From Comamonas sp. (GTDB taxonomy: Bacteria > Pseudomonadota > Gammaproteobacteria > Burkholderiales > Burkholderiaceae_C): a stretch of 64,000 nt of DNA. Positions 21,035 to 37,113 of the stretch are shown here, piece after piece. The translations under genes were made by a program, and so were the position numbers. Position 1 is the first letter of the stretch, and the number at the start of each line of letters is the position of its first letter. The stretch spans positions 1-64,000 of the forward strand of contig JAITLR010000025.1 in NCBI GenBank assembly GCA_031277805.1. The letters are read 5' to 3'. The notes beneath the pieces were generated by a model that worked only from the letters and a program-made list of their open reading frames with translations, was not told the origin of the DNA and did not search any database.

Positions 21035-22321
21035 ATGGGTATCACTTTATTTGTTGCCATCGTCGTCCTGCTCACGCTGGGCTTTCCGGTTGCGTTTGCG
21101 CTGGCCATCTCGGCGGCGCTGGCCGTGTTCGTCGGCGGCCGTTATCCGCAGCTGATCGTCTTCAAGGAAATGTTCACGGGCATCGACAGCTTTCCGCTGA
21201 TGGCCGTGCCCTTCTTCATCCTGGCAGCCGAGCTGATGTCAGGCGGCGCGCTCACGCATGTGCTGCTGCGCTTCGCGGCCCAGTTCGTGGGCCATCTGCG
21301 CGGGGGCCTCGGTTATGCCAATGTGCTGTCGCTGACGCTGTTTTCGGGCATCTCGGGCTCGGCCCTGGCCGATGCGGCCGGCCCCGGCTCCATGATGGTC
21401 AAGATGATGGACAAAGCCGGCTACAGCCGCCCCTACGCGGCCGCGCTGACGGCCAGCACGGCCATCGTCGGCCCCATCATTCCGCCCTCGGTCAGCATGA
21501 TCATCTATGCGCTGCAGGATGAAAACGTGTCGGTCGGCGGCCTGTTCATGGCGGGCTTCATTCCCGGCATCCTGATCGCGCTGGCCATGGCAGCCGTCAA
21601 CTGGTGGGTCTGCAAGAAACGCGACTACCGCAGCACCGACCCTCGCCCCAGTGCACGCGAAATGTGGGTCAACAGCTTCAAGGCCATTCCCGCGCTGATG
21701 CTCATCGTGCTCATCGTGGTCGGCATCCGCTTTGGCATCTTCACACCCACCGAGGCTTCGGTGGTCGCCGTGTTCTATGCGCTGATCTGCGGCAAGTGGA
21801 TTTACCGCACACTGCAGTGGTCGGCCGTGCCCGGCATCCTCGCCCGCTCGGCCATGCTCACCGCCTCGGTGCTGCTGGTCATGGCCACATCTGCTGCCTT
21901 TGCCTGGGTACTGACGGTGGAAGGCATCCCGCAGTATCTGTCCGAGCTGATCGTGAGCTGGGAGCTTTCGCCCACCATGTTTCTGATCGCGGTGAACATT
22001 CTGCTGCTGGTCTTCGGCATCTTCATGGAGCCGCTGCCCGGCGTGATGATCCTGGTGCCCATCCTCGCACCCATTGCCTTCACCCTGGGCATAGACCCCA
22101 CGCACTTTGCCATGGTGGTGATCGTCAACCTCACACTGGGCATGATCACTCCGCCTGTCGGCGGCCTGCTGTTCGTGACCTCGGTGGCCACACGCGTCTC
22201 CATCACCGATCTGACGCGCGAGATGCCACTGTTCCTGCTGGCCCACTTCGTCGTGCTGTGCATGCTGACCTTCATCCCTGCACTATCGACCTGGTTGCCA
22301 CATACGCTGGGCTTCCAGTAA
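21035..22321 (+). CDS. TRAP transporter large permease, DctM type
   Basis: A 428-residue inner-membrane protein with about 12 membrane segments that moves the substrate with Na+. Typical stretches are GLGYANVLSLTLFSGISGSA, ADAAGPGSMM, STAIVGPIIPPSVSMIIYA and LTLGMITPPVGGLLFVTS. With the preceding receptor and small permease it forms a complete TRAP system. ATG at 21035. It is followed by a terminator and a family A repeat. Confidence 0.95.
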   Translation: MGITLFVAIVVLLTLGFPVAFALAISAALAVFVGGRYPQLIVFKEMFTGIDSFPLMAVPFFILAAELMSGGALTHVLLRFAAQFVGHLRGGLGYANVLSLTLFSGISGSALADAAGPGSMMVKMMDKAGYSRPYAAALTASTAIVGPIIPPSVSMIIYALQDENVSVGGLFMAGFIPGILIALAMAAVNWWVCKKRDYRSTDPRPSAREMWVNSFKAIPALMLIVLIVVGIRFGIFTPTEASVVAVFYALICGKWIYRTLQWSAVPGILARSAMLTASVLLVMATSAAFAWVLTVEGIPQYLSELIVSWELSPTMFLIAVNILLLVFGIFMEPLPGVMILVPILAPIAFTLGIDPTHFAMVVIVNLTLGMITPPVGGLLFVTSVATRVSITDLTREMPLFLLAHFVVLCMLTFIPALSTWLPHTLGFQ

Positions 22322-22340
22322 ACATCGCCACATCCAGGCA

Positions 22341-22368
22341 AAAGGGCTGCCCTACGGCGGCCTTTTTT
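22341..22368 (+). terminator. Intrinsic terminator of the TRAP operon
   Basis: GGCTGCC and GGCGGCC pair (one U-G pair) around CTAC, preceded by AAAG and followed by TTTTTT, 20 bases after the dctM stop codon. Confidence 0.75.
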
Positions 22369-22456
22369 CATCGCCGGGCCGCCCCAAGATGAAAACGCCG
22401 GGGCCGCCTAGGTCCTCTTGGAGAGGCAGCGACCACACGAAGTGGGGAGCGTGGGG
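22369..22456 (+). repeat. Intergenic repeat family A, copy 3
   Basis: It starts CATCGCCGGGCCGCCCCAAG, continues AACGCCGGGGCCGCCTAGG, GGCAGCGACCACACGAAGTG and ends GGGAGCGTGGGG. It follows the TRAP terminator with no gap. Confidence 0.8.
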
Positions 22457-22546
22457 AATCATTTTTCATTCCGCCGAGCGATCTGCAATCGTTCCGGCAG
22501 CCATCTTCCGGACAATGGCCAGATTCACGCTGCCACGGACACCCTC

Positions 22547-23059
22547 ATGAAAAAATTGCTGCTGCCCTTTGCACTGCTCGCCTGCCTGAGTCCTCTGGCC
22601 TCGGCCATTCAACGCTGTGAAAGCGGCGGCCGCATCTGGTATCAGGACACCGCCTGCCCCGCAGGCAGCAGCAGCGCAACCATTGCGCCTGCGCCCCCTT
22701 TGCAGAGCGCACCGCTGTCGGGCAGCGGTCACGTCATCTCCATTCCCCAGGAGCCCAGCCAGCCCCTGCCACCGCCATCGAACCACCTGCCCACGTCGGT
22801 CTATGAACGCGAAGCCCGTCTCTGCCTGGACTGGTACAAAAAGCAGATGCAGCTGCCGCCCGACACCCGGTATCTGGACTACACCAAGGACAAACGGGTG
22901 CTGACCATCACCATTCCCGTGCGCTTTTCCTCCATGAATCAATGGGGGGTTCTTTCCGAGGGCACAGCCAACAAGCAGGCCTCCTGCGAAATCCATAACG
23001 ACCGGCTGGACGATTCCTGGACCCGCATCCATGCCCAGCGCGGTGGCTGGCTGCAGTGA
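22547..23059 (+). CDS. Secreted DUF4124-like protein
   Basis: A 170-residue protein with a signal peptide (MKKLLLPFALLACLSPLASA). The mature start IQRCESGGRIWYQDTACPAGS resembles DUF4124, in which a short Cys-containing motif (C..GRxxYQDxPC) is common in betaproteobacterial exported proteins. A Pro/Ser-rich linker (about 50-85) is followed by a second region with LCLDWYKKQMQLPPDT and a CEIHNDR segment. Function unknown. The frame is open upstream, but the ATG at 22547 gives the signal peptide. It is convergent with the PPTase gene, 4 bases apart. Confidence 0.7.
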   Translation: MKKLLLPFALLACLSPLASAIQRCESGGRIWYQDTACPAGSSSATIAPAPPLQSAPLSGSGHVISIPQEPSQPLPPPSNHLPTSVYEREARLCLDWYKKQMQLPPDTRYLDYTKDKRVLTITIPVRFSSMNQWGVLSEGTANKQASCEIHNDRLDDSWTRIHAQRGGWLQ

Positions 23060-23063
23060 TCGC

Positions 23064-23681
23064 TCAGCCTCTGCGAACCGGCTCCTTGTCGGTTGCGGGC
23101 CACCAGGCCACGGCTGCTGCATGACCTTGCGCCAGCAACAGCGAGGCACAGCTCATGCCTGTCAGCCGCGCCTGCAGCCCTGCGCTCCACTCCATCAGGC
23201 CCAGTCCCGCGCATTTGAGCTGGGCCTCCTGCCGCGCCCAGGCTTGCGCAAATGCTTCAAGAAAAAGAGCATTCTCCGCAAACCCTGAAAGCGCTTGAGC
23301 CACTTTTGGCTGCAAGAATAGCCAAGCCACCGCTTCCAGCTCTGCGCGGGGCATGTGCCCATCCACAGCCTGAATATCCACGCCAACCGCTGCCCCCCTG
23401 TGCCAAGCCAGCAGCGCCAGCCCCGGCGCATGGCTGATGGAGCAATGCAGGGTCTCCAGCAGTTGTCCATGCATCCGCAACTGCGGCGGCTGGTTGCGAA
23501 GATTGCTGATCTCCAGCTCGGCCTCGGCACAGCCCAGCTCCGCCGTCAGACAGCTGCGCAGCACTGCCCTCGCCTGCAGACGTGCTCTGTCACGGTCCAC
23601 CACATCCAGTCCCTCCACCAGCCTTAGCCGAGGCGCTCCGGTGGGCGCCTCACCCACAAAGTGGCAGGGCTGGATCTGCAT
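23064..23681 (-). CDS. 4'-phosphopantetheinyl transferase (Sfp-type)
   Basis: A 205-residue enzyme expected to add the phosphopantetheine arm of CoA to a carrier-protein serine. Motifs: HCSISHAPG (80-88), GVDIQAVDG (100-108) and WARQEAQLKCAGLGL (148 on), matching the Sfp P-motifs with Asp102, Glu152 and Lys156. The middle metal ligand of Sfp (GIDIE) is Gln104 here; some family members tolerate this. The ATG at 23681 overlaps the stop codon of the NRPS-like gene (TGATG), so the two are translationally coupled and Ser574 of that enzyme is the natural substrate. The open frame extends upstream but the coupled ATG fits best. Confidence 0.85.
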   Translation of the reverse strand: MQIQPCHFVGEAPTGAPRLRLVEGLDVVDRDRARLQARAVLRSCLTAELGCAEAELEISNLRNQPPQLRMHGQLLETLHCSISHAPGLALLAWHRGAAVGVDIQAVDGHMPRAELEAVAWLFLQPKVAQALSGFAENALFLEAFAQAWARQEAQLKCAGLGLMEWSAGLQARLTGMSCASLLLAQGHAAAVAWWPATDKEPVRRG

Positions 23682-26600
23682 CAGGCGGGCCGCCGCATGG
23701 GGGCGGCGGGAGCTCCCTCCCAGCAGGTGCGGGAGGGCAGGGTTTCGCCCTTCATCACCAATGTCAGCGGGCCCAGTTGCACATCGTCGCCCACGCTTGC
23801 GCTGTAAAGCACGGTGCAGCGCGCGCCCATGGTCACGCGCTTGCCAATGACCACATGGTCGATTTTCATCACCCGATCTTCGAACAGATGGGTCTGCGGG
23901 CAGCACAGCGCATTGAGCTCGCTGTGCTCACCTATGGTCACGCAGTCATGCTCGGTAATGTCCGTGGTGTCCAGATAGGCGCTGGCGGCAATCTTGCTGC
24001 CCATCAGATTCATGGCCAGCGGCAGCCAGGGTGTGCCGCGCAGATAGCGCAGGAAGTTGGGAATGGCCATGCCTTCATACATATTGGTCGCAGCCTCTGA
24101 CAGCCAGACAAAAGGCGTCCACATGGGTACGGCCGTCTTGGTATAGCGCCTGACGGCAAGCCATTTGAACAGGGCCGCGATGAAGAAGACCACCATGCCG
24201 AAGATGATGCCGGCCACGGCCAGATCCAGCACCACGGCGCCCCAGCGCCCCTCCGATGCCAGCGGCATGGCATCCAGCACAATCGCATAGCCGGCAGCAA
24301 TGACGACAGCATGGGGAATGGCAATACGTGCGGCCTCCACCAGACCACGCCCCAGTCGCCGCCAGGGTGATGGCGCAAAGGTCAGATGCTCGGGGTAGCC
24401 CTGAGCCACTTCACGCGCCGCCAGATTGATGGCGGGCGAACCCAGCCAGGTGTCGCCATTCTGCATGTCGGCATTGCGGGGCACGGCGGTCATGACGCCG
24501 ATCAGCACATTCTCGGGAATGGTCGAGCCATCGGGCACATAGGCACCGTTGCCGATGAAGCTGCGGCGCGACACCACCGTGGGCTTGACCGTCATCCAGC
24601 CGCCATCGATCTGTTCGTCGCCCAGCATCACCGCATCGGCCACAAAGCATTCATCCCCCAGCGTCAGCATATCGGGCACCACGCCCAATGCGGTGGACAG
24701 CTCGGTCTGCTTGCCCACCCTGGCACCCAGCAATCTGTACCAGGTCGATGAGTACACGGTGGCATAGATGCCATGCAGCGTGCCCAGGCTCGCCTCCTGA
24801 ATCTGGTTGACCATCCACTTGCCCAGATAACGGCCGCTGTGTACCGACCAGGTACCGGCCTTGGTTCTGGGCAGGAACAGATAGCGCACCAGCGCCGCCA
24901 CCAGCACCGTGCAAGCCACCAGCACCAGACTGGACGGCAGAGCCAGCGTGAAAAATTTAAGCAGGCGCAGGACAAAGGCTCCGCCCGCATCGACCACTCC
25001 CTGCTCCAGCAAGGGGCGAACGGAAATGGCGTCGATATCCAGTATGTCGATCAACATGAAGGTGGGGAACACCGGCATGAAGAACAAGGTCGCCACCAGC
25101 AGTCCGCCAAAGACATAGGCCACCATCTCCAGCCCCTGACGCAGCAAGCCGACCGTGTGCCGAGGCTGCAGGCTGGCAGGATCAAAAACGCCTTTGGCAC
25201 GCGCAGGCGAGCCCGCCCACACGCTGCGCGCAGGCTGCACCGAACCGTCTGCCAGAGCCGACTGCCCATCCAGATGCGCCCAGTCTTCAAGCCGGGTATT
25301 GCCCTCGATCACCACATACGAGCCTATGCAGACCTCGTTGCCTATGGCTATGCGGCCCAGCACCAGCTCGCCCCCTTCAACGCGCGCATTTTCCAGATTC
25401 ACGGCATTGCCTACGCTTGCGCCATCGCCGATGCTCAGCAGATCGGGCGCGCGCACCGTCATCGATCCCAGATTGGTCTCACGCCCCACCCTGGCACCCA
25501 AGGCACGCAGCCATAAGGGGTGCAGCGAGGAGCCCGTGATCATGGCAATCGGCACCGCTTCGACCAGACGGTCGGCAAACCACCAGCGGAAATAGGTCAG
25601 ACCCCATAGCGGATAGCGCCCCGGCTTGAGCCGCCCGGCCACCAGCCACTTGCCGGCCCAGGCAATGCCAAATTCAGCCAGCGTGGCAACAGCAAACGCC
25701 AGCACCGACATGGCCACGGCAAAGAGCACGGAATCACTCTCGTCGCCGGTAAAGAAGTGGTAGGTAAAAAAGGGGGCCAGCCACTGTGCCATCTTGATCA
25801 ACACCAGCAGCGGAATCGCCACCGACTGCGCCGCACCGCAGCGCCAGCGCCGCCAAGCGGAGTGAAGGCGGAAGGGGCGCTGCTGCCCGGCAGCTCCACC
25901 CGCCGTCATGGCGGCCTGCAAGGCCTCGGCAATCAGGCCCACTTTACGCTGCTGATAGACCGTGCTGACGGTGGCTTGTGCAAATCGCGGATCGGCACGC
26001 AGCAGCGATGTCAGGCGCGCAGCGAACAGAGAATGCCCGCCAAGATCGCTGAAAAAATCCTGGCCACGCCGAATCGCCTGGCCTGGGAAGATCTGGGCCA
26101 GCGCTGCAAACAGCACTTGCTCTGCTTCTGTCTCAGGCGCATCAGAGTCCGTGGGGCTGGCAGCCTGGGACAGCTCCATGGCCTTGAGCGCCTTGCGGTC
26201 GATCTTGCCCGAGGTCAGGCGCGGCATCTCGGCCAGCACCTCGAAGCGAGCGGGCACCATATAGGGCGGAAGGCGCTCGGCCAGCGCGGCGCGCAGCTGG
26301 TTCACGGTACAGGGTTCGTCGGCAGGCACATAGAAGGCCACCAACTGGTCCATGCCGTCGTCACGGCGCAGCAGCACTGCCGTGGTACCCACGCCGGGCT
26401 GCTGAGCCAGCACGGCCTCGATCTCGCCCAGCTCCACGCGGAAGCCGCGAATCTTGATCTGGTCGTCGGCCCGGCCCAGGCAGTGAATCTGCCCCTGCTC
26501 GTCGATGCGGGCCAGATCACCGGTGCGATACAGGCGGGTGTCATGCGAGCCATTGGCCCAAGGGTTGGGCAGGAATTTCTCTACCGTCAGTTCAGGCCGC

Positions 26601-27751
26601 CCCAGATAGCCTGCGGCCACGCCAGGGCCGGTAATGCACAGCTCGCCCACTTCGCCTTGGGGCAGGCCCACCAGCTTTGGCGCCGTACCAGCCGGAAAGC
26701 TGTCAGGCTCTATCACCTGCACCACCACCAGGCTGTAATTGGGCAGCGGCGTGCCAATCGTCACCGGCTCGCCTGCCTTGAGTTCGGCCAGACTGGCAGA
26801 CACCGTGGCCTCGGTAGGCCCGTAGGTATTGAACATCTGACGCGAGGCGTTTGCCCAGCGCGCCACCAGCGACTCGGGGCACATCTCGCCCCCCAGATTG
26901 ATCAGCCGCAGATTGGGCACATCCTGTGCAAACAACGCCAGCAGCGTGGGAACGGCATGCAGCACCGTGACCTGCTGCTCCATCAGCGCGCGCGGCAAGG
27001 CCTCGGGGTCACCGGCGATCTCGCGCGGCGCCAGCCATAGCGTGGCACCGACAAGGTAGCTGATCCAGACTTCCTCGAACGACATGTCAAAGGCCACAGA
27101 GAAGCCTTGATAGACCTTGTCCCCCCGGTGCACGCCCAAGCGCGCGTTTTCGCTGCGCAGAAAGTGGCAGATGCTGCCCTGGGTGATGGCAATGCCCTTG
27201 GGCTTGCCCGTCGAGCCGCTGGTATAGATCACATAGGCCGGATGCTCGGGCAAGGCGCCTTCGCGGCGGCTCAGCGGCACTTCTGCCGGTAGCGCCGCAA
27301 GCAACTCTGCCTCGGTCAATATCTGCGCAGAAATATCGGCTTGCGTCTGCACCTCCTGCATCCGGAGTTCTGCAATCAATAGCGCCTTGGCACTGGCGTC
27401 TTCCAGACAGGTGGCAATGCGCTCCAGCGGAGTTTCCGCATCGAACGGCAACCAGGCGGCGCCGGTCTTGGCAATGGCCAGCTGCAAGGTCAGCAGCTCA
27501 ATGCCGCGCGGCAGCCACAGCCCCACCATATCTCCGGGTCGAATCCCGGCTTCGATCAGCCTGTGCGCGGCGCGGCTAGCATCGGCGTCCAGCTCGGCGT
27601 AGCTGCGCTGACGCAATTGCTCGCCCTGTCCTTCGATCAGCGCGATCTGTTCTGGATGGGCCGTGGCGGTCGCTTCGAAGATATCGGCCAGCACCTCGTG
27701 GCGCAGCAGGTCTGGCCGCTCGGGCCCACGCAAAACAACAGTGTCAGACAT
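23681..27751 (-). CDS. Pls/PosA-type NRPS-like synthetase (A-PCP-membrane-triple hexapeptide-fold)
   Basis: A 1356-residue enzyme. The adenylation domain (1-525) has YVIYTSGSTGKPKG, YGPTEATV, YRTGDLAR, RGFRVELGEIE and the Lys516 loop TSGKIDRK. A carrier domain (about 540-615) has DLGGHSL with Ser574. There is no condensation or thioesterase domain; instead six membrane segments (about 643-663, 673-698, 878-900, 930-958, 1142-1165, 1174-1200) separate three left-handed beta-helix-like domains with hexapeptide repeats (about 750-850, 1005-1105, 1250-1345). This is the architecture of epsilon-poly-L-lysine synthetase Pls and relatives. Pocket residues D222 M223 E226 H265 N285 G287 T309 V317 S318 suggest a basic substrate by Glu226. 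Product unknown. Confidence 0.88.
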   Translation of the reverse strand: MSDTVVLRGPERPDLLRHEVLADIFEATATAHPEQIALIEGQGEQLRQRSYAELDADASRAAHRLIEAGIRPGDMVGLWLPRGIELLTLQLAIAKTGAAWLPFDAETPLERIATCLEDASAKALLIAELRMQEVQTQADISAQILTEAELLAALPAEVPLSRREGALPEHPAYVIYTSGSTGKPKGIAITQGSICHFLRSENARLGVHRGDKVYQGFSVAFDMSFEEVWISYLVGATLWLAPREIAGDPEALPRALMEQQVTVLHAVPTLLALFAQDVPNLRLINLGGEMCPESLVARWANASRQMFNTYGPTEATVSASLAELKAGEPVTIGTPLPNYSLVVVQVIEPDSFPAGTAPKLVGLPQGEVGELCITGPGVAAGYLGRPELTVEKFLPNPWANGSHDTRLYRTGDLARIDEQGQIHCLGRADDQIKIRGFRVELGEIEAVLAQQPGVGTTAVLLRRDDGMDQLVAFYVPADEPCTVNQLRAALAERLPPYMVPARFEVLAEMPRLTSGKIDRKALKAMELSQAASPTDSDAPETEAEQVLFAALAQIFPGQAIRRGQDFFSDLGGHSLFAARLTSLLRADPRFAQATVSTVYQQRKVGLIAEALQAAMTAGGAAGQQRPFRLHSAWRRWRCGAAQSVAIPLLVLIKMAQWLAPFFTYHFFTGDESDSVLFAVAMSVLAFAVATLAEFGIAWAGKWLVAGRLKPGRYPLWGLTYFRWWFADRLVEAVPIAMITGSSLHPLWLRALGARVGRETNLGSMTVRAPDLLSIGDGASVGNAVNLENARVEGGELVLGRIAIGNEVCIGSYVVIEGNTRLEDWAHLDGQSALADGSVQPARSVWAGSPARAKGVFDPASLQPRHTVGLLRQGLEMVAYVFGGLLVATLFFMPVFPTFMLIDILDIDAISVRPLLEQGVVDAGGAFVLRLLKFFTLALPSSLVLVACTVLVAALVRYLFLPRTKAGTWSVHSGRYLGKWMVNQIQEASLGTLHGIYATVYSSTWYRLLGARVGKQTELSTALGVVPDMLTLGDECFVADAVMLGDEQIDGGWMTVKPTVVSRRSFIGNGAYVPDGSTIPENVLIGVMTAVPRNADMQNGDTWLGSPAINLAAREVAQGYPEHLTFAPSPWRRLGRGLVEAARIAIPHAVVIAAGYAIVLDAMPLASEGRWGAVVLDLAVAGIIFGMVVFFIAALFKWLAVRRYTKTAVPMWTPFVWLSEAATNMYEGMAIPNFLRYLRGTPWLPLAMNLMGSKIAASAYLDTTDITEHDCVTIGEHSELNALCCPQTHLFEDRVMKIDHVVIGKRVTMGARCTVLYSASVGDDVQLGPLTLVMKGETLPSRTCWEGAPAAPMRRPA

Positions 27752-27926
27752 AGATCAGCGGCTTACCCGGTGCAACCGTGCATCCGAACGTGGTGGCGCC
27801 GCTCTTTTCAGTCCGCCATTATTGAGCGGGCCGCTCGTTTTCGGTGTTGCGCGGCCTGATTCCCGTCTCTGCGTTGCACAATATTTACATTAATGGAGAG
27901 CAGGCCCTGGGCCGCTCACCACCGGT

Positions 27927-29357
27927 TCAACCCGATTTGCCGTCAGCAGCTTCCAGCTGCAGTGCCCGCTCCGACACCAGCTCATAGCAACCGCGGCGCA
28001 GCTTGCGGATCTGCAACGGCCCGCCCCAGTCGGCCAGGCGGCGCTGCAACAGCAGCAGGCGCACGCCCAGGTTGTCCTGCACATCGGGCAGGCCCAGAGC
28101 ACTTCCGGCCAGGCGCAGTTCCCGCGTGGAAAAATCCCGGCGTCCATGCCGCTGGGCATCGCCGGCGATCTTCCAGAGAATGGCTCCGGCCACGCCCTTG
28201 ATCAGGTACTGGCCGTCAATGAACACCGTGCCATCGCGCGCAAAATAACGTAGACACAGAGGAGCTCCCAGCTTCGGCGGAGCTGCGATACGCGCATCCT
28301 TCGGCAGCAACGGCGCCTCAGCCTCCAGCTCGGCGCTCTGCAACGCCACCAGCGCCTGCGCCAGCTGGGCGCAGAGCACGGCCAGGGCATCCTCATCGTC
28401 ATAGCCGAAGAACTGGTCGCTATCGCTTTCAACCAGCAGCGCACCCACGGTCTTGCCCCGCGCGCGCAGCGGCATGGCCAGCTGGCTGCAGGGGGTGGCC
28501 AGGCCCGGCAGCGCAATGGGCTGACCGCCAGCCAGGCCCTGGTCGCAGGCCATTTGGTGCAGCGTGCGGCCATAGCGGTACATGCGCGCCATATGACCTA
28601 TGCGCAGCGCCACGCCCTCGCGCACGGCCACACCAACCAAACCGGCTTCGGCCAGCGCCAGCTCGGCGCCTATGCCCTGCTGCGCATAGCCCATGCTGGC
28701 CAGCGCGTACAGGCTCTGGTGCTGCTCGTCCAGCAGCCACAGAATGGCGTGGTTAACGGCCAGATCACAGCGCAGCCCGTCCATGGCGACCTGTGGCAGT
28801 TGAGCCAGCTCTGCGCACTCGGCCAGCCGAGCCGACACGGCACGCGCACCGGCAGCCAGATCGCAGCGCGGCTGCAGCGTGGCCAGCAGTGCACCGCTTT
28901 GCAGGGGCGCAATGCCCAGCACCTCGTAGATATCGGCACCGCGCAGGAGAAACACATGTTCCATGCCGGTGTGAGCGGCAATGCCGGCCAGCTTGGCGCG
29001 CAGGCGCTCGAATACAGGCCCCTCGGTCTCGGTGCGCAGATAGCGCAGTCGCAGCGCTAGGCTGCCACCGGTGCACGGGTCTTCCACCATCAGGCTGGCT
29101 CGCCGCGTGGCCAGGATGTTCTCGCGGCTATGGTTGAAGAACTGGAAGGTCAGTGCCACATGGCTGGCATCCACATACTCGACATGTGACAGCAGGTTGA
29201 CATGGGGTATGCCATCGGCCGAGACGCTGCACAGCGTCGGTGGAATGCCGCCGTCGAGCACGCGGCGGATCGCATGCAAGCTCAGCTCGCTCACCGGAGT
29301 ACCTTCGCCCTGACGGGCGGCGGTGCCATGGGCCTTCGGCACGACCGGGCGGCTCAT
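27927..29357 (-). CDS. FMN-split-barrel (PNPOx-like) / GAF / winged-helix-like protein
   Basis: A 476-residue cytosolic protein. Residues 20-150 look like a pyridoxamine-phosphate-oxidase-like split barrel (PTLCSVSADGIPHVNLLSHV, HSRENILATRRASLMVED). A GAF domain follows (about 190-350: ILWLLDEQHQSLYALASMG, AMPLRARGKTVGALLVESDS). The C-terminus (about 385-470: GAILWKI, RRDFSTRELRL, LGLPDVQDNLGVRLLLLQRR) looks like a helical or winged-helix output region. Function unknown; redox or flavin sensing is a guess. The ATG at 29357 overlaps the stop of the upstream gene (ATGA). It ends 175 bases before the NRPS-like gene, with no terminator seen, so the genes may be co-transcribed. Confidence 0.7.
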   Translation of the reverse strand: MSRPVVPKAHGTAARQGEGTPVSELSLHAIRRVLDGGIPPTLCSVSADGIPHVNLLSHVEYVDASHVALTFQFFNHSRENILATRRASLMVEDPCTGGSLALRLRYLRTETEGPVFERLRAKLAGIAAHTGMEHVFLLRGADIYEVLGIAPLQSGALLATLQPRCDLAAGARAVSARLAECAELAQLPQVAMDGLRCDLAVNHAILWLLDEQHQSLYALASMGYAQQGIGAELALAEAGLVGVAVREGVALRIGHMARMYRYGRTLHQMACDQGLAGGQPIALPGLATPCSQLAMPLRARGKTVGALLVESDSDQFFGYDDEDALAVLCAQLAQALVALQSAELEAEAPLLPKDARIAAPPKLGAPLCLRYFARDGTVFIDGQYLIKGVAGAILWKIAGDAQRHGRRDFSTRELRLAGSALGLPDVQDNLGVRLLLLQRRLADWGGPLQIRKLRRGCYELVSERALQLEAADGKSG

Positions 29358-29845
29358 GGCCCGGGCTCCAGTTGCACGACCTGACCCGCACTGGGGCCCG
29401 GCGTCTGGTTCCAGGCACCAGCCACGCTGAAGCGGACAGCAACCAACTCCTGCACAGCGACGCCGTACCAATGCTCGAGGAAAGGGGCTCCGGAAAAGCC
29501 GTCGACCTCGGCCAGCTCCCGGGTCAGTGTGTCGCGCCGCAACGCCAGCAACTCGGCATGGCCGGGCTGTGCCGACTCTACAAGCGCATCATGCCCCTTG
29601 AGGTGCAGGGTGCGGTTGGTTCTTGGCGAAGTAGCCAGCAACGCGACCTGGGCCGTCTCGCGCAAGGCAGCCACCACCTGAGGCGCGGCGCGCTCGGCCA
29701 GCAGCACCAGCATGCGGCCATCGGGCTGCACATCGGCCGCCAGAGCGCGGCAGACACAAGGGGCTCCGCCACGGTCACAGCTACCCAAGCGCAGCGAAGG
29801 TAGCGCGGGCAGGCAAAGCTTCCATTCGGCGGGCAACAGAGGCAC
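29354..29845 (-). CDS. Small PNPOx-like split-barrel protein
   Basis: A 163-residue protein, MPLLPAEWKLCLPALPSLRL at the start and TPGPSAGQVVQLEPGP at the end. RMLVLLAERAAPQVVAALRE and VALLATSPRTNRTLHLKG resemble the barrel strands of pyridoxamine-phosphate-oxidase-like proteins, which bind FMN, haem or F420. It contains several cysteines early (LCLP, SCDRGGAPCVC). It overlaps the next gene by 4 bases. Substrate and cofactor unknown. A divergent hemerythrin gene starts 211 bases away. Confidence 0.6.
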   Translation of the reverse strand: MPLLPAEWKLCLPALPSLRLGSCDRGGAPCVCRALAADVQPDGRMLVLLAERAAPQVVAALRETAQVALLATSPRTNRTLHLKGHDALVESAQPGHAELLALRRDTLTRELAEVDGFSGAPFLEHWYGVAVQELVAVRFSVAGAWNQTPGPSAGQVVQLEPGP

Positions 29846-29900
29846 GGCAGGAAACCTCCAGGCGGTTGATGCTGGGTGTTGGGGGAAATGATAGCTCGCC

Positions 29901-29942
29901 GCTTAGCAATTTTTTAGCGGCTGCTTAACAAACTCTTAGCAA
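29901..29942. promoter_or_regulatory. Four 11-bp phased direct repeats in the divergent control region
   Basis: GCTTAGCAA (29901), TTTTAGCGG (29912), GCTTAACAA (29923) and TCTTAGCAA (29934) start exactly 11 bases apart. They lie 55 bases before the split-barrel gene (minus) and 115 bases before the hemerythrin gene (plus). Helically phased direct repeats are typical binding sites of response regulators. No regulator gene is adjacent. Confidence 0.5.
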
Positions 29943-30056
29943 CGCGTTCGCAGCGCCGTTCATAGACTTTCTCCAGCCTAGCTTCCATGCGCGGCCGAAT
30001 GCCCGCTAAAGCCCGGCAAACATATCGCAACACCATTGTTTGAGAAGGCCTGCACC

Positions 30057-30794
30057 ATGAACCACGAGACCCGAGCCCAGTTTCCCTCATCGTCCAGCAC
30101 CGCAGCACGCGTGGACATCTATGTCGGCATCCACAAGGCGCTGCGCGCCATGATGCTGGACACACTGCAGGCCGTGGGCCGCATCGACGCCAACGACAGC
30201 TCCGAAATGCATGCGGTGTGCGAGCACGTACTGGAGCTGACCGACGCCTGCGCCAGCCACCTGGGACACGAGAACGACTTCGTCCACGCCGCGATGGAGG
30301 CGCGCCGCCCCGGCTCCAGCGGACGTATTGCTGGCGAGCATGTCGAGCACCTGGCCGCCATCGCCCAGCTGCGCGACACGGTGTCCAGCCTGTGCGCCGC
30401 CGGCCACGGCCTGGCGCAGGACCAGGCAGCGCTGCAGCTCTACCGCCAGCTGGCGCTCTTTGTGGGCGAGAACTTTGCCCATATGCATATCGAGGAGACG
30501 CAGCACAACGAGGTGCTGTGGTCCTGCTACAGCGACGACGAGCTGCGCGCGCTGGAAAGCACCATCGTGGCCTCGCTGCCACCGGCCGAAAACCTCATGT
30601 ATATGCGCTGGATGATTCCGGCCATGACGCCCGTCGAGCGAGCCGGACTGCTGGGCGGCATACAGGCTGCTGCACCGGCGCCTGTCTTCGCGGCCATACT
30701 CGACACGGTGCAGCCGCACCTGGGCCAGCAGGACTGGGCCAAGCTGACCAAGATGCTGACGCCCGCCCAGACCCCGGCCTGGGTCGTGGCTTAA
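30057..30794 (+). CDS. Hemerythrin-domain protein
   Basis: A 245-residue cytosolic protein with a hemerythrin HHE-type four-helix bundle in the first 165 residues. Likely iron ligands are His26 (VGIHKAL), the His and Glu in HLGHENDFVHAAME, HVEHLAAI and HMHIEETQHNEVLW. Such diiron proteins bind O2, sense O2 or NO, or help repair iron-sulphur clusters. The C-terminal 75 residues (MRWMIPAMTPVERAGLLGGI, then VQPHLGQQDW) look like an added helical region seen in some bacterial hemerythrins. The ATG at 30057 was chosen over an in-frame upstream ATG (30036). It is divergent from the two split-barrel genes. Confidence 0.8.
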   Translation: MNHETRAQFPSSSSTAARVDIYVGIHKALRAMMLDTLQAVGRIDANDSSEMHAVCEHVLELTDACASHLGHENDFVHAAMEARRPGSSGRIAGEHVEHLAAIAQLRDTVSSLCAAGHGLAQDQAALQLYRQLALFVGENFAHMHIEETQHNEVLWSCYSDDELRALESTIVASLPPAENLMYMRWMIPAMTPVERAGLLGGIQAAAPAPVFAAILDTVQPHLGQQDWAKLTKMLTPAQTPAWVVA

Positions 30795-30808
30795 GCCGCC
30801 CGGGCAAC

Positions 30809-31144
30809 TCACCCCACCGGCTCGGCCCACAGATTGGCATCACAGCCCGCTCCTGCCGCAATCCAGCGCCTGGCCAGGGCCAGCCTGAGCCGGCCCAGCC
30901 CGCGGCGCCAGGCCGAGGAATGGGATGCTGCCCGGCGCGCATCCTCCAGCACGCCGCAGCGGTAATGGAGCGCCTCTTCATCCCAGCGCAGCGCCGCACA
31001 CGCCCCTTTGCGCCGGCGCGAGATCAGCATGCCCATGGGGCAAGGTTCGGCCAGGCAACACAGGCCGCAGCCGTTGCAGGGCGCGCCAAACGCTGGCTTG
31101 GCGGGCGCCTGCGCCTGCCAGAACACCACTTGCTCGCGGGCCAT
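30809..31144 (-). CDS. Cysteine-cluster protein, YkgJ-like
   Basis: A 111-residue protein with GAPCNGCGLCCLAEPCPMGML near the N-terminus, the CxxCxxCC...C arrangement of the YkgJ/UPF0153 family, thought to bind zinc or an iron-sulphur cluster. A further Cys pair lies at GACAALRW and YRCGVLED. The C-terminus is Arg-rich. Function unknown. It lies 14 bases before the giant uvrA stop, on the same strand, so it may be the last gene of that transcript, and it is convergent with the hemerythrin gene. Confidence 0.7.
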   Translation of the reverse strand: MAREQVVFWQAQAPAKPAFGAPCNGCGLCCLAEPCPMGMLISRRRKGACAALRWDEEALHYRCGVLEDARRAASHSSAWRRGLGRLRLALARRWIAAGAGCDANLWAEPVG

Positions 31145-31158
31145 GCCGGTACAACGCC

Positions 31159-37113
<5,955 letters not shown>

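Follow-up and report, generated by a model that had tools for sequence, protein, structure and literature searches.

The stretch of DNA analysed here (64,000 nucleotides from a Comamonas sp. contig, called the window below) carries a minus-strand frame of 1356 codons that, judged from its sequence, most probably encodes a PosA-type, membrane-bound delta-poly-L-ornithine synthetase, with a 4'-phosphopantetheinyl transferase (PPTase) as its partner. The enzyme is a relative of the PosA already described and nothing new in kind. What is added here is its exact type, a strict partnership with the PPTase within the genus, the removal of two neighbouring FMN genes from the pathway and a candidate catalytic residue that can be tested.

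Locus and domain architecture

The features of the locus are collected in Table 1. Residues 641-1349 of the synthetase match the NCBIfam model TIGR02353, 'Pls/PosA family', with a score of 755.7 bits (cut-off 423.1). The NCBIfam amino-acid adenylation domain is matched at residues 50-459. Pfam at E<=1e-3 recognizes AMP-binding, AMP-binding_C and hexapeptide/LbH domains and adds nothing further; there is neither a condensation nor a thioesterase domain in the chain. The carrier domain has no Pfam PP-binding match and was recognized by its motif and by alignment: the region aligns with linear gramicidin synthetase LgrA up to residue 584, and the position of Ser574 is occupied by serine in all 110 aligned sequences. 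A hydropathy scan predicts six membrane helices in the terminal domain, arranged as three pairs, and each pair goes with one of three beta-helix units indicated by prediction and profile comparison. The chain anatomy given in the initial annotation (adenylation domain, carrier serine, six membrane segments and three beta-helix domains) is thus confirmed, and its assignment to the Pls/PosA-type architecture can be sharpened to the ornithine pocket of PosA. A search of Rfam over 22300-31300 gave nothing at the gathering threshold. The uvrA frame next to the locus (31159-37113) is very long, 1984 aa, and apparently encodes a doubled UvrA.

Table 1. Features of the synthetase locus, in window coordinates
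Feature	Position	Strand	Remarks
Pls/PosA-family synthetase, predicted delta-poly-L-ornithine synthetase	23681..27751	-	1356 aa
Adenylation domain	26204..27679	-	residues 25-516
Carrier domain	25916..26134	-	about residues 540-612, limits approximate
Phosphopantetheine site Ser574	26030-26032	-	
Terminal polymerisation domain (TIGR02353)	23705..25831	-	three homologous repeats, each a membrane-helix pair and a left-handed beta-helix
Repeat 1	25172..25822	-	residues 644-860
Repeat 2	24404..25150	-	residues 868-1116
Repeat 3	23684..24346	-	residues 1136-1356, nearly invariant QTHxxEDR..K motif
His1288 of repeat 3	23888-23890	-	
4'-Phosphopantetheinyl transferase	23064..23681	-	205 aa, ATG at 23681
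Conserved leader immediately 5' of the synthetase start	27752..27826	-	possible hairpin 27757-27803; suggestive only
FMN cassette	27930-30791		between uvrA and the synthetase

Substrate pocket and kinship with PosA

The pocket of the adenylation domain reads D222, M223, E226, H265, N285, G287, T309, V317, S318 and K516, or DMEHNGTVSK. At 10 of 10 positions this is the code given in the literature for the delta-poly-L-ornithine synthetase PosA of Acinetobacter baumannii (PMC10522769), and the acidic residues at positions 1 and 3 (D222 and E226) are those expected of a pocket for a diamino acid. A PDB search with the adenylation core gives PosA's own adenylation domain as the top match (8g95, 514.5 bits); LgrA reaches 345 bits, the adenylation domain of Pls (7wew) 215.2 bits. 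The whole chain places LgrA first, at 522 bits summed over two adenylation domains, and 8g95 scores 511. The A. baumannii orthologue in our set (L171) also carries DMEHNGTVSK and is 52% identical to the window's enzyme overall, 61% in the adenylation domain and 48% in the terminal domain. A tree of 70 representatives, which included no characterized Pls, places the window's enzyme and PosA together in a clade of 46 members (support 1.0) in which all codes begin DMEHNG; several inner nodes on the path are weak (0.273, 0.607 and 0.004), and DMEHNG codes occur outside this clade too.

Codes could be read at 110 of 117 loci, the seven whose frames do not exceed 1200 aa being left out; as two loci were entered twice (L070 = L083, L068 = L146), the distinct totals are 115 loci and 108 codes. 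DMEHNGTVSK is carried by 84 of the 110 full-length sequences, and in a further 14 the only changes are Ser in place of Thr at position 7, Thr in place of Ser at position 9, or both; DLED-type codes account for 11 and DFECISAVTK for one. Within the genus, every one of the 25 synthetases above the cut-off (53 genomes) has the PosA code. The same code, or nearly the same, is found in other Burkholderiales, in Acinetobacter and in Verrucomicrobia, and relatives in Comamonadaceae are present among the matches listed; the loci that were named are the best 80 of at least 589 confirmed. The PosA class has already been reported as widespread (PMC10522769). Our literature search found no paper combining poly-L-ornithine, synthetase and Comamonas, and a search on the family names gave none about the synthetase among the matches listed.

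Some other copies deserve mention. One in the same bacterial family (L072, genome G110) belongs to a different type of homopolymer synthetase, with pocket DFECISAVTK and 33% identity to the window's enzyme. A Streptomyces plasmid copy with the code DFECLSAVTK adjoins a gene for diaminobutyrate transaminase. Another genome of the family, G067 (L066), carries a pair of synthetase genes separated by about 12 kb, of which the second has a frame shortened to 872 aa.

Full-length PosA primed with Sfp is reported to make 7- to 12-mers of delta-poly-L-ornithine in vitro (PMC10522769). Taken together, a pocket identical to that of PosA, a shared clade and the published product of PosA make the step to ornithine a strong one, and it is from these that we infer the monomer.

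The phosphopantetheinyl transferase

The stop codon of the synthetase (TGA, 23683-23681) overlaps the start codon of the PPTase gene (ATG, 23681-23679) in the sequence TGATG. The PPTase matches PF01648 at 28.6 bits (cut-off 25) and contains GVDIQ and WARQEAQLK, which we take to be PPTase motifs. The synthetase lies above the cut-off in 25 of 53 genomes of the genus, and a fragment at a contig end in G006, with the PPTase beside it, raises the number to 26. The same 26 genomes have a PPTase orthologue (E<1e-10), which lies at most about 150 bp from where the synthetase domain ends, and at that threshold none is found in the 27 genomes that lack the synthetase; three of the latter (G001, G032 and G051) give weak matches, with E from 2.6e-4 to 5.4e-4. 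A weak second PPTase site is seen in G027 and G015, and in two of the 26 (G029 and G017) there is a stop codon inside the match. The overlapping PPTase, already noticed in the initial annotation, is therefore the partner of the synthetase. In the window's own genome PF01648 is matched by two genes, the PPTase of the locus and one on contig C27 which, judged by the size of its 150-aa frame alone, is AcpS-like. No condensation domain was found there; as the assembly is 86% complete, the absence of further NRPS or PPTase genes is provisional.

The link between synthetase and PPTase is looser outside the genus. A PPTase stands beside the synthetase at 8 of 12 family loci, seven from the profile search and one, G193, from tblastn (this locus is L051 in the tblastn set and L067 in the profile set). 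Among the best 80 named loci at least 24 have a PPTase nearby: 22 directly downstream and two further on, at L125 and L128, where the synthetase frame is split. None was detected at the other 56, some of which end at contig ends. Because the profile search skipped any frame that shares more than 35% of its length with the synthetase, it misses PPTases that overlap it (L023, L032 and G193 were found by tblastn only), and the profile counts are lower bounds. In annotated records a PPTase is given beside the synthetase in two of seven (Rhizobium and Sphingomonas), and the A. baumannii posA record has none annotated alongside.

The terminal domain and a proposed mechanism

In the VIA listing the beta-helix units of the terminal domain resemble acyltransferases acting on serine, amino sugars and antibiotics. 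No terminal domain of Pls or PosA appears among the 37 PDB sequence matches (E<=1) or among the 50 VIA matches listed, for which mainly model residues 104-256 were compared. Hexapeptide acyltransferases are separate homotrimers that use acyl-CoA.

The enzyme probably works as follows. The adjoining PPTase would place phosphopantetheine on Ser574, and the adenylation domain would use ATP to activate L-ornithine and then load it onto the carrier. The terminal domain, seen as three left-handed beta-helix acyltransferase units fused into a pseudo-trimer and anchored by six membrane helices, would join ornithines one after another, carboxyl to side-chain amine. The product would be a short cationic isopeptide polymer, and its release across the inner membrane is possible. 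It is conceivable, though somewhat short of probable, that the pseudo-trimer is asymmetric, with a single surviving site in repeat 3, and that in this genus the dedicated PPTase primes the enzyme. As an idea, the surviving site may lie around His1288 in the motif QTHxxEDR..K, with Glu1267, Asp1269 and Glu1336. If this is true, the peptide bonds of the family are made by chemistry like that of CoA-acyltransferases, on an amino acid bound to a carrier, and not by that of condensation domains.

Alternative explanations

The same machine might polymerize another monomer, L-lysine or 2,4-diaminobutyrate (DAB). Pocket codes are only approximate predictors of substrate, and the isolated adenylation domain of PosA is described as having modest activity with L-lysine and weak activity with DAB (PMC10522769), so the pocket is compatible with other diamino acids as well. 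However, full-length PosA is reported to yield no lysine polymer, and the ten residues shared with it include the Met that sets chain length, which is replaced by Ala in lysine enzymes and by Phe in DAP/DAB enzymes (PMC10522769); we regard another monomer as improbable. Still less probable is a terminal domain that makes no homopolymer and hands activated ornithine to a lipid head group or to an amine of the cell wall or of a sugar. The predicted location of this domain in the membrane and the likeness of its units to acyltransferases with such varied substrates would suit it, but PosA, a member of the same clade, is described as yielding a homopolymer in vitro (PMC10522769). A delta-poly-L-ornithine synthetase is accordingly the reading that we prefer.

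The initial annotation also tied two FMN-split-barrel genes to the synthetase and proposed control by a redox-related sensor. Their position is as it described, directly upstream and on the same strand, and this adjacency is what speaks for their belonging to the pathway. They form a cassette with a divergent hemerythrin-like gene, and the second of them also bears a GAF domain and a C-terminal region. The cassette lies beside the synthetase at one locus of 117, the window itself: in the other 116 neither the FMN genes nor the hemerythrin-like gene is matched at E<=1e-3, although nine of the 117 have less than 2.5 kb upstream, so FMN genes could be hidden in a few. The nearest relative (L042, 95% identity) has the synthetase directly after uvrA, at a distance of about 200 bp. 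The FMN-GAF protein occurs in two of 53 genomes of the genus, the second match being partial, and has homologues in 36 of 200 family genomes, the window's included. In the three other genomes that have both it and the synthetase (G123, G177 and G193, all draft assemblies) the two are on different contigs. Nine cassette loci from nine of the 35 other genomes, viewed with flanks of about 1.5 kb, all have both FMN genes, three have the hemerythrin-like gene and none has the synthetase. In G042 a remnant of the cassette lies between dctM and uvrA and the synthetase is on another contig, so the cassette can fill this interval without the synthetase. Membership of the FMN genes in the pathway, with redox control of the synthetase, is thus very unlikely, and we have discarded them as part of it: the cassette is separate and recurs without the synthetase. 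The FMN genes are bystanders, and their cassette, which recurs across the family, may itself serve as a sensor module.

Upstream leader and genomic setting

About 75 nt 5' of the synthetase start are conserved in 16 aligned loci of the genus and are able to form a hairpin whose end lies a few bases short of the ATG. In the alignment 100% of the cells are paired, 25 of 500 shuffles equal this, and two cells change on both sides. The leaders of a second genus group (L021-L028) and of L043 look different. With covariation so weak and leaders that differ, the hairpin is only a side remark, suggestive at most. A TTGYGCAA site upstream of the synthetase was dropped, as it is found in some loci only. 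In two members of the second group (L022 and L026) the synthetase is at another site, below genes that by eye appear to encode a TetR regulator, an efflux pump and an outer-membrane factor.

Significance

Preservatives and drug carriers are among the uses of cationic amino-acid polymers; what these do in nature for Gram-negative bacteria is left largely open in the account of PosA (PMC10522769). The PosA pocket is common in the genus of the window, with nearly half of the genomes carrying such a synthetase above the cut-off. A synthetase paired with its own PPTase gene is a convenient system in which to make and study the polymer, and the nearly invariant histidine of repeat 3 offers a direct mutational handle on the formation of isopeptide bonds by the terminal domain.

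Comparison with known systems

The closest known system is PosA of A. baumannii (PMC10522769; PDB 8G95-8G98), with which the window's enzyme shares the domain order, the ten pocket residues, the terminal membrane domain and a clade of support 1.0. The two differ in sequence (52% identity overall, measured on the A. baumannii orthologue) and in setting: in the window a PPTase gene overlaps the stop codon of the synthetase, while posA is reported to form an operon by itself (PMC10522769). Pls, the epsilon-poly-L-lysine synthetase of Streptomyces (PDB 7WEW), has the same adenylation, carrier and six-helix architecture (PMC10522769) and, by the model's name, falls with the window's enzyme under TIGR02353. 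It differs at pocket position 2, which is Met in the window and Ala in lysine enzymes (PMC10522769), and the adenylation core of the window's enzyme matches 7WEW at 215 bits and PosA at 514. Hexapeptide (left-handed beta-helix) acyltransferases, among them serine O-acetyltransferase, VatD and galactoside acetyltransferase, differ from the window's enzyme, in which three diverged beta-helix units are fused and anchored in the membrane; these units presumably take the acyl group from the carrier domain, whereas hexapeptide acyltransferases take it from acyl-CoA.
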